DNA of 36,398 bases from Hassallia byssoidea VB512170 (GTDB lineage: Bacteria; Cyanobacteriota; Cyanobacteriia; Cyanobacteriales; Nostocaceae): NCBI RefSeq assembly GCF_000817785.2, contig NZ_JTCM02000022.1:40404-76801 (forward strand), given 5' to 3'. This document shows positions 4,923 to 35,898 of the stretch, piece by piece. Positions within the stretch are counted from its first letter, which is position 1. Each line of letters opens with the position of its first letter. Below the pieces are notes generated by a model, which saw nothing but the letters and a program-made list of their open reading frames with translations, ran no database searches and was not told the DNA's origin. The position numbers and the translations under genes are program-made.

Positions 4923-4988
4923 AATAGTTGAAAAATTAAGCTAAATTCGTACCTAGCTAATGACTAGATGCGATGAATGATTATTGCA

Positions 4989-5060: not shown

Positions 5061-5066
5061 AAAATT

Positions 5067-11449: not shown

Positions 11450-11524
11450 TGATTCAACACCAATCTTAGAGATTACGGAAAAACTTGAATAAGGTTATCA
11501 ATAGTCAATAGTCAACGGTGGATT

Positions 11525-11766: not shown

Positions 11767-11842
11767 GATTATCTATCATAAGTGTGAGTTACAAATATGT
11801 AAGTATTTGTAACGATGTCTGTGAAGGTATATTGAGCGATTC

Positions 11843-19298: not shown

Positions 19299-19667
19299 CT
19301 ACTTCACCTCTCGCACACGTACCGATACCTGATTTGGATACCCAAATGTAAGAACTGGATAGCTCTCCATACTGATGTAATCTCCACGGTGAATTTGTTC
19401 ATCTCCATGAAGAGAGACGTGTACGCGGATTGAATAACTTGCCTGTTTATTTGAAGTCTCACTTTTTAGGGCAAATTTGACTTGATTCTCAGTCCCCACT
19501 TCATGGGAAATATCAGGAATCACTTGTTTGGCGATAATCTTAGAAGGAGCATCCAGAGAACTCACATCTTCAAGGTACACATTCACTTTGGCTCCAGAAA
19601 ATGAATCCAAGTCTTCAGAGAAAAGGATTTCGCCTGTTACGAGCAAAGACGCATTATTTGACGACAT
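19299..19667 (-). CDS. YbaY-like domain protein
   Basis: A 122-residue beta-rich protein resembling the YbaY lipoprotein domain: VTGEILFSEDLDSFSGAKVNVYLEDVSSLDAPSKIIAKQ, then QVKFALK and YSIRVHVSLHGDEQIHRGDYIS. In E. coli-type homologues the domain follows a lipobox, but here there is no signal peptide or lipobox cysteine. The function of this domain is not firmly known. No clear Shine-Dalgarno precedes the ATG. It is the last recognisable gene of the minus-strand run of secreted-type proteins, 175 bases after the astacin gene, with a nested inverted repeat in between. Confidence 0.65.
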   Translation of the reverse strand: MSSNNASLLVTGEILFSEDLDSFSGAKVNVYLEDVSSLDAPSKIIAKQVIPDISHEVGTENQVKFALKSETSNKQASYSIRVHVSLHGDEQIHRGDYISMESYPVLTFGYPNQVSVRVREVK

Positions 19668-19709
19668 TTGCGTTTATTAAAAAACAGAGTAGCTGCCTCA
19701 AATCCGAGT

Positions 19710-19807
19710 CTCAGTAGTCCGAAAATTGACAGGAGAAGTTTTGCCAGCGAATTGATGGCTGAAAACTTAATTCTTCGGATGGGAGTTTTCGATTCCTGAC
19801 TACTGAG
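19710..19807. repeat. Nested inverted repeat between the astacin and YbaY-like genes
   Basis: Outer arms CTCAGTAGTC (19710-19719) and GACTACTGAG (19798-19807) are perfect. Inside, AAGTTTTGCCA (19736-19746) pairs with TGGCTGAAAACTT (19756-19768) with small bulges. The structure could regulate or end transcription between the two genes, or be a small mobile element. Confidence 0.6.
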
Positions 19808-19841
19808 TTTAGCCTAGCAGTTATACGGAGACATCCTCAAG

Positions 19842-20831
19842 TTAAGGAAGGTAGACTACCTGACCCGGTTGCAAATTATTAGCCTCCTGTTCTGTAAAAG
19901 AGCCGCCATTGGCTGATTTCATGATTTCACGCCAACGGTTGCCATCACCTAACTCTCGTTCAGCAACTAAATAAAGTGTATCTCCCTGTTTTATGGTATA
20001 CGGACGTAACTGAGGAGTTGTCCCTGGATAGAGAAATCGGATAGTAGCTATATCGCCATTGCTAAGACCATTTCTTTGCCCGATGGGTCTTCCAGATGAA
20101 ACGGTTGTAATTGTTGGTTGACCGTTTTTAGAAAAAGCTGTCGATCCGTAATGCATGATCGAGTCATAATCGTAAGCGCCGTGGTCATCACCGTCATTGA
20201 TGTGTTGGTTAAAGTTATGCTGGTGGTCAGGCTCAATGTTCTGCCAGTGAATTTGAATGTGTCTATCCCTATCTTCTCGACTTTGTTCGTGCCAAAGCCC
20301 CAATGCATGACCAATTTCGTGGATTGTAGCACCCAAGCCGCAACCATTGGCTAGAGTAATATGTTGTTCGCCCCCCCGCATACCTATAACAGACGAGCAG
20401 CCTTTACCAGGTCGGAAGCGAATGTAGTTCGGATACTGACTTGCATTGCTGCTTGTTCGATGCACGAACCTGATGGAGGTTTTCTCTTGCCAGTGAGCGA
20501 TCGCATTTCTTACGCGCTCCTGATTGGGGAGATTAGGATCGATTTCATACGGCACAATACCATTAGTCCAGCGGTACTGCTGTCCAGGGATGAACAGACC
20601 GCGTGTACCAGCATCTTCTTCAATATCTTGCCCAGTCCGGATAGCAGCAGTTTTCTTTTCCATTTCTTCAACGGTGCCGAGGACGATACAGCCTTCAAAA
20701 ATGGCTAGCCCATCGACGACCGAGTACTGAACTGCCTTATTCTTAAAGGTAGCTCCAGATATGAAACCTGTGCGAATATCGTTACTCTTCAGTAATCCAT
20801 CAAAGTTGGTTGCGTCTTCATTGTTACTCAT
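19842..20831 (-). CDS. Astacin-like zinc metalloprotease (M12A) with C-terminal LysM
   Basis: A 329-residue protein. The astacin zinc motif HEIGHALGLWHE is at 171-182, with the Met-turn SIMHYGS at 224-230. The catalytic domain starts near residue 85 (YRWTNGIVPYEI). A LysM domain (about 277-328: YTIKQGDTLYLVAERELGDGNRW ... GQVVYLP) should bind peptidoglycan or chitin-type glycans. Residues 1-80 look like a propeptide. There is no signal peptide. The frame opens at 20915, but ATG 20831 has the purine-rich leader shared with other genes of this cluster, so I start there. The predicted role is proteolysis at a glycan-rich surface. Confidence 0.9.
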   Translation of the reverse strand: MSNNEDATNFDGLLKSNDIRTGFISGATFKNKAVQYSVVDGLAIFEGCIVLGTVEEMEKKTAAIRTGQDIEEDAGTRGLFIPGQQYRWTNGIVPYEIDPNLPNQERVRNAIAHWQEKTSIRFVHRTSSNASQYPNYIRFRPGKGCSSVIGMRGGEQHITLANGCGLGATIHEIGHALGLWHEQSREDRDRHIQIHWQNIEPDHQHNFNQHINDGDDHGAYDYDSIMHYGSTAFSKNGQPTITTVSSGRPIGQRNGLSNGDIATIRFLYPGTTPQLRPYTIKQGDTLYLVAERELGDGNRWREIMKSANGGSFTEQEANNLQPGQVVYLP

Positions 20832-20861
20832 GATTTTCTCTTCTTTGAAGTTGAGTTTTAT
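20832..20861 (-). promoter_or_regulatory. Shared translation leader (astacin gene)
   Basis: Read on the minus strand: ACTCAACTTCAAAGAAGAG then AAAATC before the ATG. It is nearly the same as the leaders of the two LysM genes (22883-22910 and 23557-23583) and similar to 29424-29436. Confidence 0.6.
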
Positions 20862-21006
20862 TGCTAAGTGAAAAATGACTTTTCGGCGATTTGTAACCAA
20901 AGCTCTGTCACACAACTACTGTCACAATCGACCAATTACAAGGACACCTATGGCAAGAAGTGAGTGCGATTGCCCTTCAAGCAATCGCACTCTTGACGTT
21001 TCAGCT

Positions 21007-21939
21007 TTAACGTCCTACCGAACAAAGCGTCACATCAAAGCTCTTCTGCGTTGGACAACTGTGCAAACCTGCTTCATCGTCATATGCGAAACTATAAGCA
21101 GTAGGACATGTTTTGCGTACAGTCTGGACAAACTTTGTTTGTACGACAGGTCCCCTGCGACACCGCTCGACATCGTTGTACGGACAACATAAATCGATAC
21201 CGGGCGGTTGGGTTTCAGGCTTTCCTAGACCAAAAGGAGGGGGATAGTTCCATTTCTTACACGGAGACAAGCATTGTACGGCTTTACCGCCATTGAAGAC
21301 CCTCAAATCCCCTAAACCTTGTTTTTCATCTTGAGGACAGCTATTCAGAGAAAGATTACAATTGGTTGTTATACATGAACCTGACTCCCCACCTCTTGGT
21401 TTAATCTCGACAGGAAGGCTGTATCCGTCTACTAGGCTGATGTTATACCAAGCATTATCTTTTGAAGAGAGGTTCGGAAAGTTAATTTCAACTTTGGTGT
21501 CAGCTGGAGGTTGACAACCTGATGGAGGGCATGGTGGTACTGCTTGTCCCGCCGCACAGTTCATGCCACGATCGTCACAGCCGACTTTTGGCCAGAATCT
21601 TCCTGCCCAACCACTACTTGGAATAGAATAATCGTGCGATTGACCCTTGGATAGTTTAACAGTACCATCCGGCAAAGGAGTTATATTGGCGTTAGGTATT
21701 GTTGCCATCCAGACGGGAAAGTTACACTGATTGGTAACTGACAATCGAGTCGTATGGCTCGTGGCTCTTGATTCTTGTGCGATCGCCGCAGAGGCACTGG
21801 GAAAAAACAGCAAGAATGTTAGTGATATTACTAAAAGCGTGGTTCTTGCTTTGGTCACTGCTCTTATTGCAATGGCAGAAACTCCGGACAGGGCAGATGA
21901 AAAGAGCGACAGTATATGGAGTGTTCGAGATTGTAACAT
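21007..21939 (-). CDS. Thaumatin-like protein (PR-5 type) with signal peptide
   Basis: A 310-residue protein whose mature part has exactly 16 cysteines, the number that forms the eight disulfides of plant thaumatin-like proteins. Order of motifs: LSVTNQCNFPVWMA, GWAGRFWPKVGC, AWYNISLVDGYSLPVEIKP, DLCCPYND, CPTAYSFAYDDEAGL, FDVTLC, all in thaumatin register. A hydrophobic signal segment lies at about 33-52, ending ASAAIAQ. AGGAG at 21947-21951 lies 7 bases before ATG 21939, so I prefer it over the TTG at 21984; an internal GTG could give a shorter signal peptide. Plant members bind beta-1,3-glucan and many are antifungal; here a similar role is inferred. Confidence 0.88.
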   Translation of the reverse strand: MLQSRTLHILSLFSSALSGVSAIAIRAVTKARTTLLVISLTFLLFFPSASAAIAQESRATSHTTRLSVTNQCNFPVWMATIPNANITPLPDGTVKLSKGQSHDYSIPSSGWAGRFWPKVGCDDRGMNCAAGQAVPPCPPSGCQPPADTKVEINFPNLSSKDNAWYNISLVDGYSLPVEIKPRGGESGSCITTNCNLSLNSCPQDEKQGLGDLRVFNGGKAVQCLSPCKKWNYPPPFGLGKPETQPPGIDLCCPYNDVERCRRGPVVQTKFVQTVRKTCPTAYSFAYDDEAGLHSCPTQKSFDVTLCSVGR

Positions 21940-22093
21940 TGTCGGACTCCTGCTTTTACACAGAGATTGATTGCGGTTTTCCAAGAGAGGAGCGGAAATA
22001 ACACGCCCCTCGGTTCTAACTTTCGTGACGCTGCCTTATTATGTCTGCAATACTTGAGTTTTGGCGGGAGCAGTACAGGCAATCTATAAAGTT

Positions 22094-22882
22094 CTAGGAG
22101 AAATCTGCTGCTTGTACGTTATAACCACCGTATTCTTCCATATACTTGAGAATCGATGTTCCATACTCATCATGAGATGGTTGGTTTTTTAACAAAAGGT
22201 CAGCTACTCCGTAAGGACCGCGCAGATGTGCCCCTGCTAGGATACCAGAGAGGCTAATAGTGATTGTTTTTGAGGCGCCTCTGTCATTAAATGTCTTTTG
22301 CTGACCGAGGTAATTGTTGATAGACTGTCCTTGCGCCCCAAGCGCACCGTTAACACGTTGCAAATTTAGGTTAAAAGCCTCACGAATTGCAGCTTCTTGA
22401 ACTTCACGGGAATTTTTGAATTGTTCTTTACTATTAATGCCTCTCTTTGCTGTCCAAGTACCTCGCCAGTAATTTTTGTCAGCACCGTTTCCATAGTAAA
22501 CATCGGCTTTGTAGTAACCAAGGTCAATTAGCAAGGGTTCTCCAAATTGGTACTTGCCCATAAACCCTAGTGTGTTTTCAGAGGTGTATTGTCTTGGGTC
22601 TCCTGATGGAAACCCCGATTCAAATGCTCCCAGTGCTTCGAGCATTTTTTGGAAATTGCCCTTACCAGCGCCGCCGCCACCATTACCAGGTTGACCTTGC
22701 CCTGGAATAACAAGTACCATTCCAACTTGAATCTGTTCGGGATTACCTCCAATTACATTGCGATTAGCTTCATAAATTTCACGCCAACGATTGCCATCCC
22801 CGTAGACTTTTTGGGCTATCAAAAACAGTGTATCTCCAGATTGAACAGTATAAGTTTGACCAAATGCTTGAGCAGTTGTCAT
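22094..22882 (-). CDS. LysM protein with lysozyme-like C-terminal domain
   Basis: A 262-residue protein. Residues 9-60 are a LysM ([20 protein letters not shown] ... VGMVLVIP), then a Gly-rich linker (61-75), then an alpha-helical domain from about 77 with GAFESG (possible catalytic E88) and [10 protein letters not shown] (106-115). The GKYQFG motif recalls lysozyme/transglycosylase-like muramidases, and the rest ([18 protein letters not shown]) I know only as a cyanobacterial module attached to LysM or calcium-binding repeats. The likely role is cleaving or binding peptidoglycan or chitin. There is no signal peptide. AGGAG sits 7 bases before the ATG within the shared leader. The first 65 residues differ from those of the next gene at only five positions. 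Confidence 0.78.
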
Positions 22883-22910
22883 GATTTTCTCCTTTCAAAA
22901 GTTGAGTTTT
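22883..22910 (-). promoter_or_regulatory. Shared translation leader (LysM-lysozyme-like gene)
   Basis: Minus strand: AAAACTCAACTTTTGAAAGG then AGAAAATC before ATG. It contains a strong AGGAG and matches the leaders at 20832-20861 and 23557-23583. Confidence 0.65.
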
Positions 22911-23031
22911 GTGGAATATATCGAATAGGAAGTGGTTCTTTGATTCAAGAATTATTGAGAGTCCATGCTAGTGTCTGCATTAAATAACTTGGTTCCTAGT
23001 ATTAGAGAAATTGAAATTCTTTAACAACCAA

Positions 23032-23556
23032 TCAAAGAATTGCTTTGACTGGCTGTCTACCTAAATTAATTGCCTCTTGGATGGTATCGACAAATAGATC
23101 AATTCTATTACCGATAATTGCCGTACCCTTATCTAACGCAGATGCAGGAACCTGCCTACCGTCCCATAGTATCAGGGTGAACTCTTTTAGCAGGGGAATA
23201 ACATTTGGGTCTACAGCACACTGTACGCGCCCTCTACCGCTTAGGGCTTCTTGCAATGTAACTCCATGTACACCTGTTGCAGGCGGATGTCCTTGTGTTT
23301 CTTCCCTGCTATAGAATGTAGCTTCTAGATTTAATGTGTTAGGGGGATTGGGATTCGGATTCGGCTGACCAAGTCCTGGGATAACAAGTACCATCCCAAC
23401 TTGAATCTGCTCTGGGTTCCCTCCTATTACACCACGATTAGCTTCATAAATTTCACGCCAGCGATTGCCATCCCCGTAGACTTTTTGGGCTATCAAAAAT
23501 AGCGTGTCCCCAGGTTGGACAGTATAAGTTTGGCTAGATGCTTGAGCAGTTGTCAT
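23032..23556 (-). CDS. LysM protein with 3D (Asp-Asp-Asp) double-psi barrel domain
   Basis: A 174-residue protein. LysM at 9-60, a Pro/Asn linker (63-74), then a 3D domain with its three aspartates in [10 protein letters not shown] (D116), [12 protein letters not shown] (D142) and RIDLFV (D153), as in MltA/YuiC-type lytic transglycosylases. It is expected to cleave peptidoglycan glycan strands or a related polymer. There is no signal peptide. The start is fixed by AGGAG in the shared leader. It lies between the LysM-lysozyme-like gene and the GH17 gene on the same strand. Confidence 0.85.
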
Positions 23557-23583
23557 GATTTTCTCCTTTCAATAATTGAGTTG
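23557..23583 (-). promoter_or_regulatory. Shared translation leader (LysM-3D gene)
   Basis: Minus strand: CAACTCAATTATTGAAAGG then AGAAAATC before ATG; near-identical to 22883-22910. Confidence 0.65.
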
Positions 23584-23609
23584 TAAAAAGACCAGAAGCC
23601 GCAATTAAG

Positions 23610-24602
23610 TTACGCCCTTTTCTCCGTATACTTTCCTTGGTCGTTGAGATACCACAGACCGTAGTGTCCCTCAGCACCGTTTGGTCCAGACCAAGGGTTT
23701 TCTGGAGGAACTTGGGCGTTCTGGTTGCTTTTCCAAGGCTCGTCAAATGCCTCAAAAAGGTAAGTTGTTACTTTCTGCTCAAATGCCCACTTATCAATTG
23801 CCTTGTAGTAGGCAAGAAGATTTTGTACATTGTTGGCTGTGTTGTTAAAGCTAATTCCTTGGGAAGACCATCCAGTTTCGCCAATCATGACTTCGCACTG
23901 CGGCTTAATTGCGGCAACAGCTGTTTTAATAGTATTGAAGGCTTGAGCTACCCCATTTACACCTTCAATCGGAGTGGCTGTATTCAAAGCCGGATAAAGG
24001 TTGCAAAGGATAAAATCGCAATTCTGAATGAGGGTTTTCAACTCGTTGTAAAACGGGCTGTTTGGGTTGGCAATATTTCCAAAAGTATGCGATCGCACGC
24101 CCACTTTGATATTCAGGCTTCTAGCTTTCTGCTTGTTAGCTACAATCATCGCGTTGACAGCATTGGTTGTCTCTGCGTTAACTACATATTCATTTGTGAA
24201 TACAAAAGAAGTTACCGTATTGGGATAAACAGCGTTCGCTGCTATTGCCGCAGAAAAAGCAGCTTTAATTTCTGCCTGTTGTAGTGCCGCGTTTGGCAGT
24301 TGCTGATAAATTCCTTGAGCCACCTCAATAACAACCTGACCCCTCTGCTGATTCAACTGAGCAGCAGCAAGAGCAACGCGACAGTTAGAATCTACTTGAT
24401 CCCAAGGTGTTGTGGGCTGGTGATAGCCTGCATAACCCATCCCATATGTGCAAATTTTGTTGAATTTGGAGGCAATGACCTCAAGCATACGGACAATATC
24501 CTGCTGGCTGTATGAATTCCACCACGGAGTCGTGGCGTTTGGAGGAGTTCCAGTCCAGCGACCAACATAAGGCTGAAAAGCAATACCAAGAAATTGAGAC
24601 AT
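23610..24602 (-). CDS. GH17 family beta-1,3-glucanase-like hydrolase
   Basis: A 330-residue (beta/alpha)8 enzyme of glycoside hydrolase family 17 (plant PR-2 family). The acid/base glutamate is E138 in FVFTNEYV and the nucleophile E242 in VMIGETGWSSQG. LGIAFQPYVG opens the barrel and LFEAFDEPWK with EGHYGLWYLN closes it, as in bacterial and fungal GH17 members. The likely substrates are beta-1,3-glucans (callose, laminarin, fungal wall). The protein starts directly with the catalytic domain; no signal peptide and no binding module. It is on the same strand as the LysM and CAP genes. A second GH17 gene survives only as a C-terminal remnant near 29.2 kb. Confidence 0.9.
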   Translation of the reverse strand: MSQFLGIAFQPYVGRWTGTPPNATTPWWNSYSQQDIVRMLEVIASKFNKICTYGMGYAGYHQPTTPWDQVDSNCRVALAAAQLNQQRGQVVIEVAQGIYQQLPNAALQQAEIKAAFSAAIAANAVYPNTVTSFVFTNEYVVNAETTNAVNAMIVANKQKARSLNIKVGVRSHTFGNIANPNSPFYNELKTLIQNCDFILCNLYPALNTATPIEGVNGVAQAFNTIKTAVAAIKPQCEVMIGETGWSSQGISFNNTANNVQNLLAYYKAIDKWAFEQKVTTYLFEAFDEPWKSNQNAQVPPENPWSGPNGAEGHYGLWYLNDQGKYTEKRA

Positions 24603-24690
24603 AACAAAATCTTCTGTTCAAGTGAGATTTATAAGAGTGAAGGAGTACTTATTAGCGTGCGACGTGCTAAATATTACCCATCCTCATCAT

Positions 24691-25101
24691 TTACAAGGGT
24701 GTACCAAAAACTTGTGTCCAGTAGTGTTTGTAATTAACGTCACCCATATCCTTAGCTAAGAAATAATAACCAACCCCTATTTCCTTATAATCTGGAGTCA
24801 GAATGTTTTTGCGATGTCCTGGGCTGTTCATCCATCCCTTAACGGTATCTTCTGGGGTAGACCGACCTGCTGCAATATTTTCTGCTGCACGGGAGTATCG
24901 ATAGCCTGTAGCTTTAATGCGGTCAAATGGGGATGAACCATCTTCTCCTGTATGATTGAAATAGTCCCGCATTGCCATGTCTACACTGTGCTTTTGAGCG
25001 GCTACAGCTAACCGACCATTGAATCTCAATGGTGGTAAACCTGCTTTCTGACGTTCGATGTTAGTGAGTTCTACAACACGATTGATAAATTCTTGGCTCA
25101 T
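24691..25101 (-). CDS. CAP (SCP/PR-1-like) domain protein 1
   Basis: A 136-residue single CAP domain. The cavity residues H50, E74, H96 and H126 are present (DYFNHT, AAENIAAG, SPGHRKNIL, KHYWTQVFG). CAP proteins include plant PR-1 and bacterial YkwD; they bind sterols, lipids or peptides, and no general enzyme activity is agreed. There is no signal peptide, against the habit of the family. GGGAGG lies 8 bases before the ATG. It is a paralogue of the next gene (same length, same cavity residues), a tandem duplication. Confidence 0.92.
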   Translation of the reverse strand: MSQEFINRVVELTNIERQKAGLPPLRFNGRLAVAAQKHSVDMAMRDYFNHTGEDGSSPFDRIKATGYRYSRAAENIAAGRSTPEDTVKGWMNSPGHRKNILTPDYKEIGVGYYFLAKDMGDVNYKHYWTQVFGTPL

Positions 25102-25189
25102 GGTAACAACCTCCCAAATGTAGAAATAGATTTTAATAATTGGTCAGTAAGGGGCGATTTGGTTAAATTCAATCAAATTACGTCTTTGA

Positions 25190-25597
25190 TTAGGGTTTGC
25201 CAAAGCATTGTGTCCAGTAATGTTTGTAATTAACGTTACCTGTATCATTGCCTAGATAGTAGTAACCAACTCCAATTTCTTGATAATTTGGACTCAGGAT
25301 GTTATTGCGATGTCCTTCACTGTTCATCCATCCTTCAAAAGCATTTTCTGGGGTGGAACCACCTGCATAAATGTTTTCACCGACATAGGTTGATGGATAA
25401 CCTTCAGCTTGGGCACGATCTGAAGGTTTGCTTCCATTTGGGCTTTTATGACTGAAAAAGTCCTCCAATGCCATGTCTGCACTATGTTTCTGTGCTGCTG
25501 CTGCTAACACAGGGTTAAATCTCAGCTCTGGCAAACCAGAAGACCGACGTTTAGCATTAGTGAGTTCTACAATGCGATAGATAAAGTTACGATTCAT
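25190..25597 (-). CDS. CAP (SCP/PR-1-like) domain protein 2
   Basis: A 135-residue paralogue of the adjacent CAP protein, collinear without gaps and with the same cavity residues (H50, E74, H96, H126; DFFSHK, VGENIYAG, SEGHRNNIL, KHYWTQCFG). The surface loops at 52-72 differ most. There is no signal peptide. AGAGG precedes the ATG within a leader similar to that of CAP 1. It is the first gene of the minus-strand run. Confidence 0.92.
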   Translation of the reverse strand: MNRNFIYRIVELTNAKRRSSGLPELRFNPVLAAAAQKHSADMALEDFFSHKSPNGSKPSDRAQAEGYPSTYVGENIYAGGSTPENAFEGWMNSEGHRNNILSPNYQEIGVGYYYLGNDTGNVNYKHYWTQCFGKP

Positions 25598-26199
25598 AGT
25601 TAATAACCTCTTAGTTAAGAAATTCTAGGAGTGATTAAGCTAGTAATTGGTCTGAAGACTAAGTAATCAAGCATGAAAAATATTAGAGATTTCCTCTAAT
25701 TGGCAATACGGCTCCACGACTGGCTTACAGCATCGTTTGCTGGATTATAAAATCAGCCAGTTTGACAGAAAAACTAGAATTTGAGCTATTCTTCTGAGCA
25801 GAAGGTGAAGCTCTAGATAATTGCTTGTTTTTCCTGCTTCTATTTTTAGATAGATTCAAGTCCAATCGACTTATACACTTGTATGGGTTGTGTTAGCCCA
25901 ATATCGTCCAATAGCAGATCGGGTGTCACCAACAGCCGTACAAGTGCTGAAAGTCTTGCTAACCAAGACTTTGATAAAAATTTATTTGGTCACAAATACG
26001 ATGAATGCCAACTTTAATTTTATTTTTGAAATCTTTTTTTGCCACATAAGCGATGACTTTGGCTTCAGGCAGTTAGCATTTTTGCTACTTCTACCAGATT
26101 AATACCAGTTTTTGCAAGACAACCGCGCTACATCATCTGCATAAGTTCACAAAACCAAAATCTATATATATATGTAGCTCTCCAGAACATTGAGAAAAA
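25598..26199. other. Gene-free stretch between CAP 2 and the sigma-like gene
   Basis: About 600 bases that separate divergent genes and should hold both promoters. A 70-codon plus-strand frame (25890-26102) has no recognisable content and I do not call it. A run of TATATATATATG at 26163-26174 is low-complexity. I cannot fix promoters. Confidence 0.5.
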
Positions 26200-27762
26200 A
26201 TGGTCACTGGTGAAATAGGTTTGCTGTTGATGTCATATCTGATGAAAAGCGAGGTAATTTTAAAACCTATGGTAGCACCGTCAAGATACTGGATAATGTG
26301 GATAATTGATTCTCCTAGAGTGGAATATAATAAGCTAAAAGATGGCTACAAACTCAGGACAATCCACTTAGCACAGGAGTTCTTCAGGGTACAATTTCCC
26401 AAGTTAGCCAGTCAACCCACACTATCGTCAGAAGAAAACAGACATGTTCAAGCTGTTGTGTGGAAAATGTTTCGTTCAGCTGACGATATCCGCGATCGCG
26501 CTTTTGCTGGGCTTTGTTTGAGATGCTATGTATCTCAGACAATTCTCATCAGCTGCAAAAAAATTTCTCATACTTGTAAACCCCAAGTTGAGAACCCTTT
26601 TAGCTATATTGATTTGCTTCCATTCGTTTTAAATGACGATGGTAAAGAAGAGGTGCTGTTGGATAGTGAAGAGCAAACTCAACTTATCTTGAATCATGAT
26701 TACACAACTCGACCAATAGCTAAAGGAGGAGAGTTTTTTAGCGTTGAAATTTTGCGGAAATTTAATCCAACCTTAAGTTCTAGTGAAAGCTTAGATAATT
26801 GGACTTGGAGATTAACCCAACAAAATCAAAATTTAAGGTTATTTCTGTGGGAGTTAGGGGTAAGGACTCCCAGTGACTGCGCGTTATTATGTAGACATAT
26901 TCCCCGTTCTCTGGAACCGCATCTTCAAAAAGGAGACCGCGAAATTGTAGAGGTCTTTCATGCAGTCTATCGTCGAGACAGACGCAACTCACATGAAAAA
27001 GGACGTTGTTCTGAACCTACGCTAAACCAACTGCAAGAAATGCGCGATTTGTTGCAGCAACGAAATATCATTCATTCTCATCAAAAACTAATTTATCATC
27101 TCAAAAGAATCGCAGAAATCTTACGTCAGGATACGCTTTATAAAAGAACAGGTAGTCCCAAAACAATACCTATAGAAGTGTATGATAACTCCACTAATGA
27201 CTATGTTCCCAATCTAGAGTTAGGTTTTTATACTGACACCGGACTAGAGGAAATTGAATTAGACCAATTAAAAGAGGATTGTCATGCCTTATTTGAAGAG
27301 GTTTTATATGAAGCGATATCAGAAGTGATTTACCAACAAATTGAAGGTTTAAGAAAAAGTAAAGGTTACAAAAGTTTTGCTCAAAAATTCCATGAAGGTT
27401 TGCAACTTTACTACGAAGAGGATAAGTCTTTAGGGGAGATTGGTAAATTGTGGGGGATACCTTGGTATCAAGCCAGACGCATATTTAAATTAGAAAACTT
27501 TCTGGAGAATGTTCAGTATCGCACAGAAGAAAAATTTATTGACAACATTTCAAAAACATCTACAAAATATCGAGTTACAACAATTTCCACTAACCCAGAC
27601 TATTTAAAAAATGTTGCTGAATCAATTAGAAATTATGCTTTGAATAAAACATTTAATGATGCACACGCAGAAATACAAAGCGGCAAAAAACAGCAAAAAA
27701 ACAGCTTATTTGCTCAACTAATACGCCGTTATCTTAATGATTCAATCAAAGAGGCAGCATGA
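26200..27762 (+). CDS. Sigma-like helix-turn-helix protein upstream of DUF1822
   Basis: A 520-residue, largely helical protein that I cannot assign firmly. Near residues 408-432 it has a convincing HTH (DKSLGEIGKLWGIPWYQARRIF), placed like region 4 of sigma-70 family proteins, and before it an acidic helical stretch (LDQLKEDCHALFEEVLYEAI). Cyanobacteria often have a sigma-like gene directly before a DUF1822 gene, which supports this reading. The N-terminal 40 residues are hydrophobic-mixed and poorly supported: the ATG at 26200 has no Shine-Dalgarno and a later start is possible. It is 64 bases upstream of the DUF1822 gene, same strand, probably one transcript. Confidence 0.6.
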   Translation: MVTGEIGLLLMSYLMKSEVILKPMVAPSRYWIMWIIDSPRVEYNKLKDGYKLRTIHLAQEFFRVQFPKLASQPTLSSEENRHVQAVVWKMFRSADDIRDRAFAGLCLRCYVSQTILISCKKISHTCKPQVENPFSYIDLLPFVLNDDGKEEVLLDSEEQTQLILNHDYTTRPIAKGGEFFSVEILRKFNPTLSSSESLDNWTWRLTQQNQNLRLFLWELGVRTPSDCALLCRHIPRSLEPHLQKGDREIVEVFHAVYRRDRRNSHEKGRCSEPTLNQLQEMRDLLQQRNIIHSHQKLIYHLKRIAEILRQDTLYKRTGSPKTIPIEVYDNSTNDYVPNLELGFYTDTGLEEIELDQLKEDCHALFEEVLYEAISEVIYQQIEGLRKSKGYKSFAQKFHEGLQLYYEEDKSLGEIGKLWGIPWYQARRIFKLENFLENVQYRTEEKFIDNISKTSTKYRVTTISTNPDYLKNVAESIRNYALNKTFNDAHAEIQSGKKQQKNSLFAQLIRRYLNDSIKEAA

Positions 27763-27826
27763 GCAAATTATTTCCCATAAAATACTGATTTTATCGCAGC
27801 GTAGCATATAACCATGAGCTAAGATT

Positions 27827-28948
27827 ATGATTAATACCTCTATTTATTCAAGATACTGGAGACAAGAATTGTCACCAAAACTTATTTGGCTGGAACCGGA
27901 ACATTTTGAGTCAGCTAAAGAAATTAGCGACCGAAACTTAAGCGAAACACACCAGTGGAAAATTTATTTAAATGCATTAGCGCTACTTGGTTTTGAAGAA
28001 TGGCTGAGAGAAAGAATTCCAGATGTCAAAATTAATCGAGATAACTGTTCAATATTTAAATCCGACAGCGCTAATGTGATTGATGTTGTTTATAATCTAA
28101 GTTTAGGTGGATTTAACCTTTGCTTAATTACTGTAGATAACCTAATTGATGATTTTGTCACTGTACCCAAAGAAGTCATCAATTACCCAAAAATGATTGC
28201 TCATTTTTATGTATTGATTGAGGTATTAGAAGAGGAAGAAAAATTAAATATTAACGGTTTTTTACGTTACGATAAACTCGTGAAATATTGCCAATCAATT
28301 AATTTGGAAGCTCAATCTGATAGTTGTTATCAGCTACCGCTTTCTTGGTTTGATCCTGAGGTAAATAACTTATTGTTATACTCGTGTTTCTTGTCACCAG
28401 ATGCTATTCCTTTACCATCAATAGCTGAGGTTAATCATACAGATATACAAACTATAAGCCAGACTACAAGCATCGTTAAGAAAGCGCTAGTAAACGTGAG
28501 CAGTTGGTGGCTTGGAGTTTTTGAAGAAGGTTGGCAATCCACCAAAGATATTCTGAAGACGCTTGATAATAACTATGCTTGGGGTTCTGCAAGAAGTAAG
28601 TCGGTTGATTATCATTGTGGGGCGAAAAAGTTAGATTTTGGACTATTGTTAAATGGTCAAGCATTAGCTTTAGTTATCAATGTAAAACGGTTGGAAGATA
28701 ATGAAGTCGATGTGCTTGTACAGGTTATTCCTTACAATGAGTCACCTGGCAATGAGGAATATCTACCGTCTGGGTTGAAGCTGAAAGTGACTCTTAATCC
28801 TAGTACTTCTGAGTCAGAAAGTCAGGAAGTCACTGCGAGGAAAGCTGATAATATCATTCAGTTAGAATTTAGTGAAATTTTAGGTAGACAATTTAAGGTT
28901 GAAGTCGGCTTTCAGGGTGCTGTGATTACTGAGGAATTTTTGTTGTAA
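27827..28948 (+). CDS. DUF1822 family protein
   Basis: A 373-residue protein with the N-terminal features of the cyanobacterial DUF1822 family: LIWLEPEHFESAKEIS, WKIYLNALALLGFEEWLRERIP and LSWFDPEVNNLLLYSCFL. The C-terminal third (about 280-370) looks beta-rich (LKLKVTLNPSTSE, QLEFSEILGRQFKVEVGF). There are no membrane segments. The function is unknown; members usually stand between a sigma-like gene and a CHAT- or CHASE2-domain gene, suggesting a signalling or stress module. Here the expected downstream partner is replaced by decayed insertions, and the CHAT gene lies 2.3 kb away in convergent orientation. Confidence 0.8.
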   Translation: MINTSIYSRYWRQELSPKLIWLEPEHFESAKEISDRNLSETHQWKIYLNALALLGFEEWLRERIPDVKINRDNCSIFKSDSANVIDVVYNLSLGGFNLCLITVDNLIDDFVTVPKEVINYPKMIAHFYVLIEVLEEEEKLNINGFLRYDKLVKYCQSINLEAQSDSCYQLPLSWFDPEVNNLLLYSCFLSPDAIPLPSIAEVNHTDIQTISQTTSIVKKALVNVSSWWLGVFEEGWQSTKDILKTLDNNYAWGSARSKSVDYHCGAKKLDFGLLLNGQALALVINVKRLEDNEVDVLVQVIPYNESPGNEEYLPSGLKLKVTLNPSTSESESQEVTARKADNIIQLEFSEILGRQFKVEVGFQGAVITEEFLL

Positions 28949-29015
28949 TTTTTTCAAATGGTGTTTAGCCTAGAGTAGACTTTTGCCAGTGCTGGGGTCA
29001 AATGAGCAATCGTAC

Positions 29016-29082
29016 GTGCGACCCGAAGTCGCACAGGAGAGTGGAACCCTCAAAAAGTTCCCAGGTTAGTATCCAAAACCTG
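29016..29082. other. Three consecutive hairpins
   Basis: GTGCGAC-CCGAA-GTCGCAC (29016-29034), GGAAC/GTTCC (29043-29061) and CAGGTT/AACCTG (29062-29082) follow one another with little spacing, downstream of the DUF1822 gene. This looks like a structured RNA or transcript end, but I cannot place it in a family. Confidence 0.35.
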
Positions 29083-29156
29083 TACCCGCTTAAAGGGGCT
29101 TTGCGCTTAATCACAAAGTTTCATAGCTAGAGGGTTAAGTGCCCAACCTGATTAGT

Positions 29157-29252
29157 AAAGCCATTCACGCTCATGGAGGCTAGGGTACTGAGGGACACTA
29201 CGGTCTTTGGTATCTCAATGACTCTGGTGGTTATACACAGAAGCATGTCTAG
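29157..29252 (+). pseudogene. Remnant of a second GH17 gene (C-terminus)
   Basis: After a TAG at 29181-29183, the frame 29184-29252 reads GTEGHYGLWYLNDSGG, then YTQKHV and a stop. This matches the last 20 residues of the GH17 enzyme encoded at 23610-24602 (GAEGHYGLWYLNDQG, then KYTEKRA and stop). The rest of the gene is gone. It lies on the opposite strand from the intact gene and just upstream of the GH16 fragment, so a beta-glucanase gene pair probably once stood here. Confidence 0.8.
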
Positions 29253-29423
29253 CAATAAGCATAAACAATGATGGGGAGAGTTGAGCAATTTATAATCTCT
29301 TAAGATTCTGGTGTAATTAAACACATATTTATTCTGGTTCTAGTTACAACCATCATCTTCGTTAATGTGACGTTGAGGATGCGCGTGGGTGGATGAAAAT
29401 GCAAGTGAAAACCGTTATCAAAA

Positions 29424-29436
29424 TTCAAAGAAGAAA
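29424..29436 (+). promoter_or_regulatory. Shared translation leader before the GH16 fragment
   Basis: TTCAAAGAAGAAA directly precedes the ATG at 29437; compare TTCAAAGAAGAGAAAATC before the astacin ATG. Confidence 0.45.
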
Positions 29437-29589
29437 ATGGCTGACAAAAAAACGATTAATTTTTCTGGCTATGTATGGGAAGTACGCTCTTCCGGTGATG
29501 GTGGTCCAGGTCCAAACCACTGGAGTAGTGATAATGTCTGGGTTGACCAAGATGGTTATTTACACCTGAAAATTACTCAACAAAATTAA
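29437..29589 (+). pseudogene. N-terminal fragment of a GH16-type beta-glucanase
   Basis: From ATG 29437 the frame encodes 50 residues: MADKKTINFSGYVWEVRSS, GPGPNHWSSDNVWVDQDG, YLHLKIT, then a stop at 29587. This is the first strands of a bacterial GH16 (lichenase/laminarinase-like) fold. A frame shift separates it from the catalytic fragment that follows. The A/T-rich codon use resembles the neighbours. I would expect a strand with W..AEV next; it is missing. Confidence 0.7.
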
Positions 29590-30307
29590 AATCGGCGTTG
29601 AATCGGAGGGCTACAACCCCGAAGAGAAACGCCAAAGAAAGGCAATCCGTATTTATACAGATAAAAAGTATAATGGAGGGCTGTTCATTATCGATTTAGA
29701 CCACATACCTGAAGGAATGGCGGTATGGCCAGCGATATGGCTGGTTGGAACGGGACATACATGGCCTGAGAACGGAGAAATCGACATCATCGAAGAAGTC
29801 AACTCAACACCCTCTGCGAACAACAGCAACCAGTCAACATTGCACACCAGAAAGGGATGTGTCCAGAACGTCCCACATATTTTGCATCCCGACTGCAACG
29901 CCAACAACGCTTTCACGGGATGTGGCATCATGGGACCAGAAGGCTCTTTCGGCCACGGATTCAACCAGAACGGTGGTGGAGCATACGCTTGCGAGTGGAT
30001 CTACGACCAGACAATTAAAATCTGGTTCTGGAAGCGTGCTGACATCCCTGCGAATGTCCTTGGAGATTCACCTGACCCGAACACATGGGGAACCCCTTAC
30101 GTCAGTTTCAATCCGTGTCCCGGATATTTCAAAGACATGGAGATGGTCGTCAATACGACCTTGTGCGGAGACTGGGCTGGCAATGTTTTCCCTGGAGGAT
30201 TAGAAAAATGCGGTGGGTACCTTTGGGACACAAAAAATAATCCTAAATTCCGAGATGCATATTTCCTCATCCGAAGTGTAAGAATCTTCACGCAAAAACC
30301 AACTTAA
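29570..30307 (+). pseudogene. Catalytic part of a fungal-type GH16 endo-1,3(4)-beta-glucanase
   Basis: Frame open from 29570 without a normal start until ATG 29717, which lies inside the domain. Residues: KIGVESEGYNPEEKRQRKAI, RIYTDKKYNGGLFIIDLDHI, then PEGMAVWPAIWLVG and the catalytic NGEIDIIEEVN (ExDxxE), and on to a normal stop after IRSVRIFTQKPT. The spacing WPAIW - NGEIDIIE - LHTRKGC follows the fungal Lam16A-like GH16 group. Codons are rich in C-ending forms (AAC, GAC, TTC, CCC), unlike the neighbours, which suggests transfer. Without its N-terminal strands in frame it is probably inactive, unless frameshifting or a minor start rescues it. Confidence 0.75.
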
Positions 30308-31236: not shown

Positions 31237-34200
31237 TTAAATTTCGATACTGTTACACAGAGTGCGATCGCTCTCATTCACCTTAGGATTGCTTTTCAGA
31301 TAATCACCTACCCAATTGCAACCATCAACCAGTAGCTGATTTGACTCCAAGCCCAAATCCCACAAAATTAATTTTCCTAAGTTGTCAGCTGAAGCAAGTT
31401 GATTGCCATCAGAGGTGAAATTTAGGCTCCAGACGGAATCATCGTGTCCAAAGTAAGTTTTCAGTTCCTTTCCGTCAAGACTCCAAACTTTAACAGTCTT
31501 ATCTAAACTGGCAGTAGCAATTGTTTTACCATCTGGACTAAATCTGACACGGAAGACTCCAGCTTCATGCCCTTTAATGGTTCTAATAAATTTACCTTCT
31601 CTTGTCCAAAGTTTGACTGTTTTATCCTCACTGGCAGTAGCAATCATCTTGCCGTCGGGACTGAAACTGACACTATGAACTCCATCAATATGCTGTGTAA
31701 GGGTTGTGATTAGTTTACCTTCTTTTGTCCAAAGTTTCGTAGTTTTGTCCCAACCAGTGGTAGCGATAATTTTGCCATCGGGACTAAAACTGACGCTATT
31801 AGCCCCTTCCCCATCTTCATCTTTACCTTTTGTATGTGCCTTAATACTTCGGAGTTGCTTGCCATCTAAGTTCCAGAGTTTAACAATGCCATCATAACCA
31901 GCAGTGGCAAAGATCTTACCATCAGGGCTAAAACTCACTTGCCATATCCATTTTTTATCGTGTCCCTTGAAATCTTTGATTTTCTCTCCTTTGCGATTCC
32001 AAAGTATTACAGTTCCATCAGTGGTAGCAGTAGCAATTATTTGCCCATTAGGGCTAAAATTGACGTGAGTAAACTCTGCTTTATCCAATTTAAGAGTTTT
32101 AATTAATTCACCTGAACGCTTCCAAAGTTTAACAGTTTTGTCCTTACTAGCAGTAGCAAATTCCTTACCATCAGGGCTAAAACTTACGCTATAAATTGCA
32201 CCGCTATGCGCCTGATAGATTTGATGTTTCTTCCCTTTTAATTGCCAGATTTTGGCAGTTCCATCCTTGCTAGCAGTGGCAATCATCTTTCCGTCAGGAC
32301 TGAAACTCACGCTCCAAATCCAATCATTATGTCCGCTCATCAGGGTTTGGAACTTATCGCCAGATTCGCCCCAGATTTTAATAGTTTGGTCAGCACCGAC
32401 AGTAACAATCTGCTTTCCATCAGGACTAAAACTAACGCTAGTGACCGAATTTTTATGATCATCTAGGGTTCTTATCTCTTTTCCCTCAATGCTCCAGAGC
32501 TTCACAGTTTCATCCCTACTAGCGGTAGCAATTTTCTGACCATTGGGGCTGAAACTCACACTCCAAACCCAATCAAAATGTCCAGTCAAGGTTCGCAGTA
32601 ATTTCCCATCTTGGCTCCAGAGTTTGACAGTTTTATCCTGACTGGCGGTGGCAAGAGTATTACCATCAGGACTGAAACTTAGGCTCAAAACAGGCTGGTC
32701 ATGTGCTTTAAAAGTTTTGATTAATTTACCTTCTCTTGTCCAGAGTTTAACATTTCCTCCGGCATCAGCGGTAGCAATTGTCTGTTCGTTTGGACTAAAA
32801 CTTAGACCATCTACACGATCAAGCTTTTTTTTATTCTCCTTGAAGGTAGTGATTAATTTACCTTCTCTTGTCCAAAGTTTGACAGTTCCGTCCCAACTAG
32901 CTGTTGCAATTCTGTTTCCTGTAGGGCTAAACCTGACTCTACGTACCAAAGCTTCATGCCCTTTGAGGGTTTGTATCTGAGTCCCATCTAAACTCCAGAG
33001 TTTAACAGTTTTGTCCTTACTTGCAGTGGCAATCATCTTACCGTCGGGGCTGAAACTAACGTCTGTAACCTCATCTTTATGCTTTTCCAATCGATTGCGT
33101 TCCGTAACTTTATAGAGTGCATTTTGTAATAAAGTATCAACCTGCTTTTGGATATCAGCCTTTTCCTGAAGTCTATGAACTACTAGATAAGTTGGTGCTT
33201 CTTTCAGTTTTCTGGATGCCCTCAAACTTTCTATCAGCGCTTCAAAATCTTGCTCCGAGGTTAAAAGCGCTTCACTTGATACACTAATAGCTTTGATTTC
33301 GTTCAATTGGGCATTCTGCCATTGCCACCAAGCTGACCCAGCGAGCATCAAGGCTACCAGCGAAACACCAGTAAGCCCGAAAATAGTTAGCTTTCGTCTC
33401 AGCCTCTGTTTTTGCTGCTCTTGTTTGCGCCATGTAATGCTAGCGGTAATAAAATCTCGCGCTTGTGGTGTTAGTTCATCTCCCCGTTGTTTGTACCAAT
33501 CTTCTGCTACTGCTAGGCGCGTTCCTTGCAATAAAGCTTCTGGGTTTTGATTACTATTTTCCCAATCACGTACATCTTGCTTGAACCTTTCTTGCCAAAT
33601 GCGAAACTCACGGTTAGTTGTTATCCACTTTCGCAGAGTTCCCCATTCCCGAATCAACGCTTCATGGACAATTTCTACTGTTTCTATTTCATCAATTTTA
33701 TCCCACCCAGTCACCACTAAACGCTCATCAGCCAAGTGTTTGACTAAACCCCAATTTTCCTTCCCCACCTCGTTGCGAGTCGCCACACGCCTAGTGTCTT
33801 CTGTCCCTTCCCCTGGACGCACTAACTGAATAAATACCCTTTCTGCTTGTTGTTTCTCTTGCTCAGATAGGTTTGTTAATGCTGACGAAGCGTGTTTTGC
33901 TAAAGCTTTTTCTAAACCGCCAATTTCTTCATAAGCTTGATGCGTCAAATACCAATTTTTCTGTTTCGACCACAGTTGAGCTAAGGCAAACTCCAGCATA
34001 GGTAAACGACCAGGGCGATCGCCCACATCATTAATTAGTTTACTTGTTAACCCCTCCTCCAGTTCCACCTTCATTTTTAAAGCTGGTTTTTCAATCGCAT
34101 CTCGCAATTCCTCAGAGTCCATTGGAGTTAGTAACAATGGGGGGTATTGTTGCAAAGCCTTTCCCATTGATTGATCGTCAAGCACAATTCCCAAAAAATC

Positions 34201-35898
34201 CGCTCGCAACGTCAGCACCAGCGTAAACCCCGAAGTTTTTCTTACTGCCAAAAGCAGTGCATTCAAAAAACTGTGGCGTTCTTCCTGGGCAGCAAGAGTG
34301 TAAAGTTCTTCAAACTGGTCTGCCACTAACACCAAACGGTGATATCCTGAGGAGTTAAGAATATTTTCGAGAAAATGGCGTAATACTGTCTCATCATGTC
34401 GCAGGTTTACCTCAAATTCTAGTTCCGCTAAAGAGCTAGCAGTTTCTCCTAATGCTTCTGTTTGTCCTTGTACCACAGACTTGCAATATTTGCTCAACGC
34501 TACAGCCAAAGCATCAAACGGATTTTTCCCCGGACGAAAACTGATTATCTCTACATTGCCTTTCTCTTGTAAACGAGGAATCAACCCTGCAAACACCACA
34601 GACGACTTCCCACTCCCAGAAGCACCAACTACAGGTACGAGCGGGTTGCTGCTGACGGCTTTCACTAAAGAAGCAATAAACTTCTCCCTACCAAAAAAGA
34701 AATCTGCATTTTTCTGACAAAACGCAGATAAACCTTGATAGGGACAATCAGGAAGTTCACCAGAAAGTCCTCCTAAATCTTCCCAACTCGGTGTAGGACT
34801 AGTTGTATTTTGACAGATAATTGGCAACCAGCTTACCCCCGGTAGCCGCTTCTCAATATCTTTGTCGTCTGCAAGTTCTAAGAGCTTATCTCTTGCTTGT
34901 CGAACTGAATTAAATAAAGATTCACCTTTTGAAAAAGAACTTAAAAAATATTGGAGAAACTTTTGTGCTAATTTATCTGGTACTTCTTCGCGCCAGACAA
35001 TAATATAAGGTAAGTTTAAATCTGCTAATTGTCTTGCTAAACCTAGACCGTCGCAGGAATTGAAGATTGCTAATTTTAAACCTTTGTTAATAGCTGCCTT
35101 CAGTGTTCTTTTGATTTCTGCCAAACTTAAACTATCATTGGGATTAATATTTATTATGCCTGTTTGACCATCACCTTTTGTTTCGCTATGACCGGCAAAA
35201 AAAAGGATATCGCAGGCTTCTTCCCAGAGCGTATTAAAATCGGAACGATTTGGTTCTGTAAGAACGATGAGTTCTGCTGATCGTTTCTTCAATTTTTCAA
35301 GTAATTCTTTATCTGCACTAGTATCAATATTTGTACTATCTCCAAAAATACTGATAATCCTAGGTCTTCTAATTTTACCAGAAGCCGATGATTGTTCCGA
35401 TGTCGTAGTACTTGCAACACAAGTGTGAAAACAAACAGCCGGTTCACAAAAAAACTTTTGAGCGAAAAAACCCCATTCCTGCCAAGGTAGTCGATGTAAG
35501 ATGTCTTTGGTCGCAAGGCAGGCAATTTTCTCAGTGTGGATAAATAGACGAATTTCTGGTTGAGAGTCTTGTGGCAGTGCTTGTTCTAATTTTGACTGAA
35601 TGGGGTGAAGCCACTGATGAAGGTGACGGCATAAACCCTGAGCATAATTATCACAATCTGTTTTGGATATATGAGTGACTTGGTTATTTTTAAAACCACC
35701 TCTGGAATGGTTCAGTAACGAATAGTATTGCTCTTTCCAACGTTGATAAGAAACTGAAATTTCCGTATTTGGAGGTAATTGCAATTCTAGTTGTGTGATA
35801 TTCTCAATTGCATTTGCTACCGTTATCTTAAGATTAATTTTACCAAAGCCGCGCTCAAAGTTACCGTCACCAAACTCCAAATTTACCCATATTTCCAT
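31237..35898 (-). CDS. CHAT protease - nSTAND NTPase - 14x WD40 protein (NLR-like)
   Basis: 1553 residues. The N-terminal MEIWVNLEFGDGNFERGF is a module common in cyanobacterial CHAT/CHASE2 proteins. A CHAT (caspase-like) domain follows, with the catalytic dyad H237 (FFAGHSE) and C282 (FNSCDG). Then an nSTAND1 NTPase: GREKFIASL, Walker A GASGSGKS (425-432), Walker B LVLVADQFEE (522-531). A hydrophobic segment at about 838-860 is a likely membrane anchor. Residues about 935-1520 hold 14 WD40 repeats (SVSFSPDGK..ATAS.DKTVKLW), two seven-bladed propellers. The plan is that of an NLR: sensor propellers, oligomerising NTPase, protease effector. The role in immunity or regulated death is inferred. 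It converges on the decayed zone downstream. Confidence 0.93.
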   Translation of the reverse strand: MEIWVNLEFGDGNFERGFGKINLKITVANAIENITQLELQLPPNTEISVSYQRWKEQYYSLLNHSRGGFKNNQVTHISKTDCDNYAQGLCRHLHQWLHPIQSKLEQALPQDSQPEIRLFIHTEKIACLATKDILHRLPWQEWGFFAQKFFCEPAVCFHTCVASTTTSEQSSASGKIRRPRIISIFGDSTNIDTSADKELLEKLKKRSAELIVLTEPNRSDFNTLWEEACDILFFAGHSETKGDGQTGIININPNDSLSLAEIKRTLKAAINKGLKLAIFNSCDGLGLARQLADLNLPYIIVWREEVPDKLAQKFLQYFLSSFSKGESLFNSVRQARDKLLELADDKDIEKRLPGVSWLPIICQNTTSPTPSWEDLGGLSGELPDCPYQGLSAFCQKNADFFFGREKFIASLVKAVSSNPLVPVVGASGSGKSSVVFAGLIPRLQEKGNVEIISFRPGKNPFDALAVALSKYCKSVVQGQTEALGETASSLAELEFEVNLRHDETVLRHFLENILNSSGYHRLVLVADQFEELYTLAAQEERHSFLNALLLAVRKTSGFTLVLTLRADFLGIVLDDQSMGKALQQYPPLLLTPMDSEELRDAIEKPALKMKVELEEGLTSKLINDVGDRPGRLPMLEFALAQLWSKQKNWYLTHQAYEEIGGLEKALAKHASSALTNLSEQEKQQAERVFIQLVRPGEGTEDTRRVATRNEVGKENWGLVKHLADERLVVTGWDKIDEIETVEIVHEALIREWGTLRKWITTNREFRIWQERFKQDVRDWENSNQNPEALLQGTRLAVAEDWYKQRGDELTPQARDFITASITWRKQEQQKQRLRRKLTIFGLTGVSLVALMLAGSAWWQWQNAQLNEIKAISVSSEALLTSEQDFEALIESLRASRKLKEAPTYLVVHRLQEKADIQKQVDTLLQNALYKVTERNRLEKHKDEVTDVSFSPDGKMIATASKDKTVKLWSLDGTQIQTLKGHEALVRRVRFSPTGNRIATASWDGTVKLWTREGKLITTFKENKKKLDRVDGLSFSPNEQTIATADAGGNVKLWTREGKLIKTFKAHDQPVLSLSFSPDGNTLATASQDKTVKLWSQDGKLLRTLTGHFDWVWSVSFSPNGQKIATASRDETVKLWSIEGKEIRTLDDHKNSVTSVSFSPDGKQIVTVGADQTIKIWGESGDKFQTLMSGHNDWIWSVSFSPDGKMIATASKDGTAKIWQLKGKKHQIYQAHSGAIYSVSFSPDGKEFATASKDKTVKLWKRSGELIKTLKLDKAEFTHVNFSPNGQIIATATTDGTVILWNRKGEKIKDFKGHDKKWIWQVSFSPDGKIFATAGYDGIVKLWNLDGKQLRSIKAHTKGKDEDGEGANSVSFSPDGKIIATTGWDKTTKLWTKEGKLITTLTQHIDGVHSVSFSPDGKMIATASEDKTVKLWTREGKFIRTIKGHEAGVFRVRFSPDGKTIATASLDKTVKVWSLDGKELKTYFGHDDSVWSLNFTSDGNQLASADNLGKLILWDLGLESNQLLVDGCNWVGDYLKSNPKVNESDRTLCNSIEI

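Follow-up and report, generated by a model that had tools for sequence, protein, structure and literature searches.

Bacteria that attack fungi, such as Streptomyces (PMC13170338) and Corallococcus (PMC8466578), are described as carrying fungus-lysing sets of chitinases and glucanases. LysM-GH19 chitinases are reported from Nostocales and lichen-forming cyanobacteria, where a role with fungal or bacterial partners has been suggested; the same paper argued, with low node support, that plants were the source from which some bacterial GH19 lineages were transferred (PMC8547705). Here we describe a gene cassette in the last 36.4 kb (hereafter the window) of a 76.8-kb contig from the 7.5-Mb genome of Hassallia byssoidea VB512170, which combines a thaumatin-like protein (TLP), a GH17-family enzyme, two CAP proteins, an astacin metalloprotease and several LysM modules. 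We interpret this locus as belonging to a modular wall-lytic cassette that exists in several versions among filamentous cyanobacteria. The cassette products would act jointly on a chitin/glucan wall, the target most likely being fungi or fungus-like eukaryotes. We place the probability of this reading at about two in three.

The cassette and its relatives share the use of chitinases and glucanases with the Streptomyces and Corallococcus sets. However, it is compact, exchangeable, LysM-tagged, mostly leaderless and found in a phototroph; this comparison draws on parts of both reports and was not made gene by gene. The LysM-GH19 proteins of related cassettes look like the cyanobacterial groups CHIT 11-I and CHIT 11-II, no assignment to either being made, whereas the sections used of the paper defining these groups treat the GH19 gene alone, without a cassette or TLP, GH17, GH64 or CAP partners (PMC8547705). 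Anti-fungal glucanases and chitosanases of Calothrix and Anabaena are likewise cyanobacterial, but appear in the portion of the report used here as single enzymes, with no cluster, TLP or GH17 (PMC10300848). Thaumatin-domain proteins of Legionella (PMC4256840, in part) are distant relatives of the cassette TLP. Among the titles and abstract openings of the matches listed from the open-licence literature, no published description of the cassette was found, which is not proof of novelty.

Organisation of the locus

The ORF (open reading frame) list and a Pfam scan place eight genes between 19299 and 25597, all on the minus strand (Table 1). In order from 19299 they encode a YscW/YbaY-family protein, a LegP-like astacin with LysM, the TLP, a LysM protein with an unassigned domain (X262), a LysM-3D protein, the GH17 enzyme and the two CAPs. 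A preliminary description made from the sequence alone had named these families and reported eight genes, from the YbaY-like one to the second CAP, on one strand with short gaps. The gaps among the listed ORFs are 53–174 bp, and Pfam bears out both CAPs, the GH17, the astacin and the two LysM proteins with X262 and 3D. The LysM of the astacin is sub-threshold in Pfam (18.8 bits, cut-off 20.9) and is matched by the cassette LysM reference. The canonical 16 cysteines claimed for the TLP are also present, as its ORF encodes 17, one of which lies in the hydrophobic leader, leaving 16 in the mature part.

Table 1. Cassette genes and remnants in the window, and C14 caspase-like genes near GH17/GH19 anchors at other loci.
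Feature	Locus	Position	Strand	Evidence
YscW/YbaY-family protein	window	19299..19667	-	PF09619 33.8 bits, cut-off 22.6
LegP-like astacin metalloprotease, C-terminal LysM	window	19842..20915	-	astacin PF01400 182 bits
Thaumatin-like protein	window	21007..21984	-	PF00314 122.6 bits, full model (positions 1-209)
LysM + unassigned domain X262	window	22094..22882	-	LysM 38.5 bits; remainder without Pfam match
LysM + 3D-domain protein	window	23032..23556	-	LysM 39.7 bits, 3D 37.1 bits
GH17-family enzyme	window	23610..24602	-	PF00332 37.1 bits, cut-off 28.2
CAP protein 1	window	24691..25101	-	PF00188 100.6 bits
CAP protein 2	window	25190..25597	-	PF00188 94.5 bits
GH17 C-terminal scrap, pseudogene	window	29175..29246	+	tblastn 71% over 24 residues, one stop
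Broken GH16-type glucanase, pseudogene	window	29579..30301	+	tblastn 90% / 80% to relatives' enzymes
C14 gene	L004	6580-8694
C14 gene	L005	16595-18625
C14 gene	L043	3830-7318
C14 gene	L053	10799-14350
C14 gene	L054	1509-9217
C14 gene	L057	3945-7754

The genes appear to be kept by purifying selection, as pairwise ratios of non-synonymous to synonymous substitution (dN/dS), a crude estimate, are 0.10–0.30 for all eight genes against the genome G406 and for six against Cyanomargarita. The values are 0.24–0.30 for YscW/YbaY, 0.13–0.27 for the astacin, 0.15–0.25 for the TLP, 0.10–0.24 for LysM-3D, 0.10 for GH17, 0.12–0.27 for CAP1 and 0.15–0.16 for CAP2.

The astacin passes the NCBIfam equivalog model LegP (329.5 bits, cut-off 300), yet differs from the Legionella protein in carrying LysM within a wall-lytic cassette. 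The listed TTG starts of the TLP and astacin are probably too early. For the astacin an alternative ATG lies at 20831, preceded by a purine-rich stretch, and starting there would widen the neighbouring gap to ~175 bp. The YscW/YbaY protein has no signal sequence, has orthologues within the cassettes of loci L004 and L005, and may have a chaperone-like accessory role, judging from its family name alone. LysM-X262 has relatives at L004, L009 and L050. X262 may be lysozyme-like, judging from a motif; the structure model of the protein is too poor to use (predicted local distance difference test, pLDDT, 44.6). LysM-3D or 3D-LysM proteins occur at nine loci (L004, L005, L008, L040, L041, L044, L045, L055, L057).

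Beyond the eight genes, the remnants of a second GH17 and a GH16 glucanase noted earlier are real by tblastn. The GH16 fragment itself has no Pfam match; its identity is 90% to a LysM-linked Rhizonema enzyme (L008/L042:7543) and 80% to L045:5147. Among solved structures the latter best matches beta-1,3-1,4-glucanases, at E 5e-48, and, at E 5e-39, a laminarinase; we take these structures to be of fungal origin.

Recurrence and co-location

Rearranged forms of the cassette are found in other genera, as well as in a Coleofasciculus metagenome-assembled genome (MAG); a return of the set in varying order among cyanobacteria is what the preliminary description had named as support for its reading. 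G406 holds the window set with the TLP relocated (TLP, YbaY, astacin-LysM, LysM-X262, LysM-3D, GH17, CAP, CAP), adjoining a C14 caspase-like gene and crystallin-CAP and metalloprotease-crystallin proteins. Cyanomargarita calcarea carries CAP, CAP, LysM-3D, LysM-GH19, a GH17 scrap, TLP, LysM-GH18, astacin-LysM and YbaY, followed by CHAT-TPR and C14 genes; the LysM of its GH18 is sub-threshold in Pfam and matched with the cassette reference. Rhizonema PD38 has GH64, 3D-LysM, LysM-CAP, GH17, TLP, GH30 and the LysM-linked GH16-type enzyme, with L042 and L008, which agree in length and ORFs, taken as one contig and counted once. GH19, GH17, TLP and LysM-X262 share one contig in the Coleofasciculus MAG, bearing in mind that MAG contigs can be misplaced. 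At all five TLP loci a GH17 lies within ~3.3 kb of the TLP, although at L005 this is only a scrap. Other GH17 or GH19 loci hold overlapping sets, bringing GH64, GH16, a papain-like protease, a sulfatase, lysozyme and a LysM-alpha-1,3-glucanase; the protease and the sulfatase may simply be located nearby. PatG-type subtilases also lie near several cassettes (L052:12155-14176, Pfam-checked, with similar N-termini in L046 and L058).

The central families are rare. The TLP is present in 1/388 class-sampled genomes (that of H. byssoidea), in 3/99 relatives and in 4/217 family genomes. GH17 is found in 1/368 class-sampled genomes, again the same one, and in 10/217 family genomes, nine of them over the cut-off; the below-cut-off match of G477 (L047) was left out. 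GH19 occurs in 20/217 family genomes, 15 of which were treated as chitinase-type after omitting short or odd matches (G567, G424, G586, G536, G212).

The clustering exceeds chance. In 18 genomes a CAP gene lies within 10 kb of 16/22 GH17/GH19 anchors against 0.26 expected, the radius having been picked after the first loci had been viewed. All five GH64 copies sit inside cassettes, the family being present in 4/12 genomes searched. GH17 and chitinase-type GH19 co-occur in 6/217 genomes against 0.62 expected (p 2.8e-6, or 2e-5 when all 20 GH19 genomes are counted), p-values which are optimistic since related genomes were treated as independent. GH17 is also present in each of the four family genomes that have a TLP. 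At least 6/15 anchors have a C14 gene within 10 kb, against 0.39 expected (Table 1), while phmmer found no C14 match in the window.

This repeated meeting of the same families, across genomes and orders and beyond expectation, argues against the locus being a hotspot that gathers unrelated foreign genes with no joint function. Scraps and turnover at 29–30 kb of the window and in L005, together with the large genomes, are what a hotspot would leave, but some neighbours share near-identical LysM modules and the genes are under purifying selection, and we consider this explanation improbable.

The same distributions bear on a use against the cyanobacterium's own wall or against other bacteria, in which LysM, 3D, X262 and the YkwD-like CAPs would remodel peptidoglycan or lyse rivals while the glucanases trim sheath polysaccharide. 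3D proteins occur in 214/217 family genomes, which suggests an ordinary role of the domain in the family. CAPs are abundant, at 3–10 genes per genome, and 101/121 lie outside cassettes in the 18 genomes, with 20/121 near anchors. However, two of the three 3D matches in the H. byssoidea genome are frames of 420–422 aa elsewhere, unlike the 174-aa cassette protein, the set is sporadic, and the chitinases, GH64 and alpha-1,3-glucanase of relatives have no obvious own-wall substrate. An own-wall or anti-bacterial use is thus unlikely to account for the cassette.

Comparison with plant pathogenesis-related proteins

The cassette CAP, GH17 and thaumatin proteins belong to the same domain families as the plant pathogenesis-related (PR) proteins PR-1, PR-2 and PR-5, and relatives add GH19 and GH18 (compare PR-3 and PR-8). 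The preliminary description saw the locus as mirroring these plant proteins. The families stand, but the CAPs and the GH17 are not plant-type by cysteine count and structural ranking, respectively, and the nearest TLPs found are bacterial, in collections without eukaryotic rows. The cassette further differs from the plant proteins in being clustered in a bacterium and in that most members are leaderless. The likeness is best regarded as functional, an analogy.

The TLP matches 14 distinct TLP sequences in the PDB. At the five positions taken for the R-E-D-D-D acidic cleft, alignments show R, E or D kept at four, with one D replaced by N. In a tree without eukaryotic rows, the five TLPs from cyanobacteria group as a single clade (100/100), and the nearest other rows are Myxococcota. 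The nearest non-cyanobacterial TLPs found are from Myxococcota (42–45% identity, L010-L019) and Comamonas (43%), in collections that hold no eukaryotic rows. Direct descent from a plant TLP is therefore not supported, within a tree of that composition. A TLP-alignment scan of the species-genome collection, whose patterns reach only part of the family and which may omit the window's own record, returned 23 loci. Three are cyanobacterial (Cyanomargarita, Rhizonema PD38 and the Coleofasciculus MAG), seven are from Legionella/Legionellaceae, and the others are from Myxococcota, deltaproteobacteria or unnamed bacteria. In a limited phmmer test for cassette members around the TLPs of L010-L025, made with our own reference set, just weak matches to the GH16-type reference U306 were seen in L016, L018 and L020 (20–26 bits). 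The Legionella-type frames (L023, L024, L025) are 652–724 aa long, with the thaumatin domain in separated pieces. The TLP gene of Comamonas endophytica (L006) is on a 647-kb plasmid, and its annotated neighbourhood holds no cassette.

The window GH17 would be of the beta-1,3-glucanase or transglycosylase type, and by its structural matches it is not plant-type. Its Pfam match covers only the C-terminal part (residues 233–326 of 330), and it has no signal sequence. Its PDB matches rank 6fcg (E 3e-7), which we take to be bacterial, then the fungal GH17 structure 4wtp (E 2e-5), ahead of 4hpg (E 0.019), presumably a plant enzyme. Foldseek with a low-confidence model (pLDDT 54.8) ranks a mannosidase first and the GH17 structures 4wtp and 4wtr second and third; strands and helices alternate in this model, in agreement with a (beta/alpha)8 fold. 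The motifs TNE and GETGW, presumed to hold the catalytic glutamates, are conserved in the window, L008 and L009, and the second aligns with solved GH17s.

The window CAPs contain zero and one cysteine and have no hydrophobic N-terminus, so they are not of the cysteine-rich secreted PR-1 kind. Their best NCBIfam match is YkwD, below cut-off (130.7 bits for CAP1 against 171). The one item that is clearly plant-like is a class I/II-like GH19, in a relative and outside the window. This LysM-GH19 of Cyanomargarita matches class I/basic endochitinase structures at up to 304 bits against up to 196 bits for chitinases A and C, which we assume to be from plants and Streptomyces, respectively.

LysM modules

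LysM is fused to eight kinds of partner: astacin, X262, 3D, GH19, GH18, CAP, the GH16-type enzyme and alpha-1,3-glucanase. Two window enzymes share LysM at 91% identity, while the Cyanomargarita 3D protein bears a different LysM type. LysM pairs from one locus have a median identity of 0.65 (24 pairs, range 0.39–0.91), compared with 0.59 in 119 pairs that have the same partner but come from different loci. Although this overall excess is small, six within-locus pairs are striking at 0.77–0.91, and the shared and differing LysM types together suggest exchange of modules.

A common LysM on leaderless enzymes could also be read as a docking tag by which a contractile, phage-tail-like injection system loads the cassette effectors. 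The PDB matches of a window LysM include the tail-tube initiator 9g8s (E 9e-9), however the best match is the potassium-binding protein Kbp. The H. byssoidea genome has no match to the tube family PF06841, which is present in 14/18 cassette genomes against 158/217 overall (p 0.43), showing no enrichment. Loading by such a system was rejected as a general explanation on these two grounds, and we regard it as very improbable. In the part of the study used here, Anabaena mutants lacking the injection system had no notable phenotype with the predators tested (PMC8894136).

Export and release

A hydrophobic N-terminus was found in only 6/89 cassette proteins from 23 loci, namely all five TLPs and one stand-alone X262. 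This was scored by a hydrophobicity threshold of 2.2 rather than by a signal-peptide predictor; the 89 proteins include at least five N-terminally cut frames (one being the L005 GH17 scrap), and seven are borderline (1.6 to 2.2). Among the latter, a GH19 without LysM at L050:155 has a possible leader by eye.

The leaderless members pose a concrete question of enzyme release in multicellular cyanobacteria. One tentative answer, which we hold to be doubtful, is a sacrificial anti-fungal arsenal, in which the LysM-tagged hydrolases would stay cytoplasmic and the TLP, rich in disulphides, would be the one member exported. Individual cells of the filament that lyse under stress or through C14 activity would then free the kit onto an attacking or partnering fungus. 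Single cells of Anabaena are described as lysing under stress to form 'ghost cells' (PMC8894136, in part). Together with the C14 neighbours, this makes release by lysis possible but does not prove it. The ghost cells in that account lacked peptidoglycan in every case (PMC8894136), which speaks against LysM retaining enzymes on the ghost-cell wall.

Likely target of the cassette

The families of the cassette and its relatives would between them act on beta-1,3-glucan (GH17, GH16, GH64), other beta-linked glycans (GH30), alpha-1,3-glucan, chitin (GH18, GH19) and protein. In the proposed mechanism, the exported TLP would probably bind or loosen beta-1,3-glucan, while GH17, and elsewhere GH16, GH64 and GH30, would cut beta-glucans. 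GH18 and GH19 would cut chitin, the alpha-1,3-glucanase alpha-glucan and the astacin protein. The CAPs may bind sterols or wall ligands, and LysM would anchor several of the enzymes onto chitin or peptidoglycan. Such a combination would suit a fungal wall better than that of a plant, oomycete or bacterium, and the likely targets would be fungi or fungus-like eukaryotes that parasitise the cyanobacterium, grow on it or live with it as partners. The additions in relatives (GH19, GH18, GH64, GH16, GH30 and alpha-1,3-glucanase) would suit wall attack better than the window alone. The earlier proposal of a wall-attacking set gains from these additions and from the recurrence, whereas its possible link to symbiosis draws on one MAG named Rhizonema, whose lichen habit is assumed.

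Several observations weigh against a joint attack on fungal-type walls. LysM, 3D and bacterial CAP also fit bacterial peptidoglycan. In the window version there is no chitinase, and the additional glucanase genes are broken. Ordinary secretion predicts the opposite of the few hydrophobic N-termini observed. The set is absent from most family genomes. At some loci little of it is seen: at L043 the GH17 neighbours are just a lysozyme gene and a C14 gene, L054 has caspase-like genes only, L056 has GH19 alone within 10 kb, and the L047 match is no cassette. In addition, anatomy beyond the five TLP loci was read from phmmer similarity to our own reference set rather than from full annotation.

The same enzymes would also serve feeding rather than defence, with the walls of dead fungi or algae digested for carbon and nitrogen in lichens or soil crusts. 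Soil bacteria often use enzymes of this kind for nutrition. However, a TLP, CAPs and an astacin are odd for simple feeding, most members are leaderless, and no uptake gene was recognised among the annotated ORFs, where no search aimed at transporters was made. Feeding is therefore an unlikely main role.

If the wall-lytic reading is true, a kit directed at fungal-type walls, compact and exchangeable, is present in some filamentous cyanobacteria, and it has reached the plant PR families largely by its own route. It would place LysM-tagged anti-fungal enzymes in a phototroph, and would make it testable how lichen and soil-crust cyanobacteria check or partner fungi.

Neighbouring genes

Promoter-like and terminator-like sites show no excess over shuffled sequences (15 against 13.5 and 2 against 6.0, respectively). 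A search of an anti-phage defence library, from which CAP2 was left out, gave no match for the other seven cassette proteins (YbaY to CAP1) or for two flanking genes at 26200-28948. These encode a 520-aa protein without a Pfam match and a DUF1822 protein; the same pair lies at 2687-5401 of Cyanomargarita L005, so the surroundings of the two cassettes agree on one side.

A 1553-aa nSTAND-WD40 protein is encoded at 31237-35898, 5.6 kb from CAP2, with an N-terminus that is CHAT-like by eye only. It matches one anti-phage model at 133 bits, over a short part of a 1972-position profile and via its WD40 repeats. A similar protein adjoins the GH19 cassette in L055. Elsewhere in the window, a 792-aa ORF at 244-2622 contains low-complexity inserts (GDKGDKG and KETKRQKD repeats), which look like intergenic repeats inserted into coding sequence. 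An ORF at 11498-11779 consists of a repeated 7-residue unit, RSRLKVQ, which derives from a short DNA repeat and is probably not a gene.

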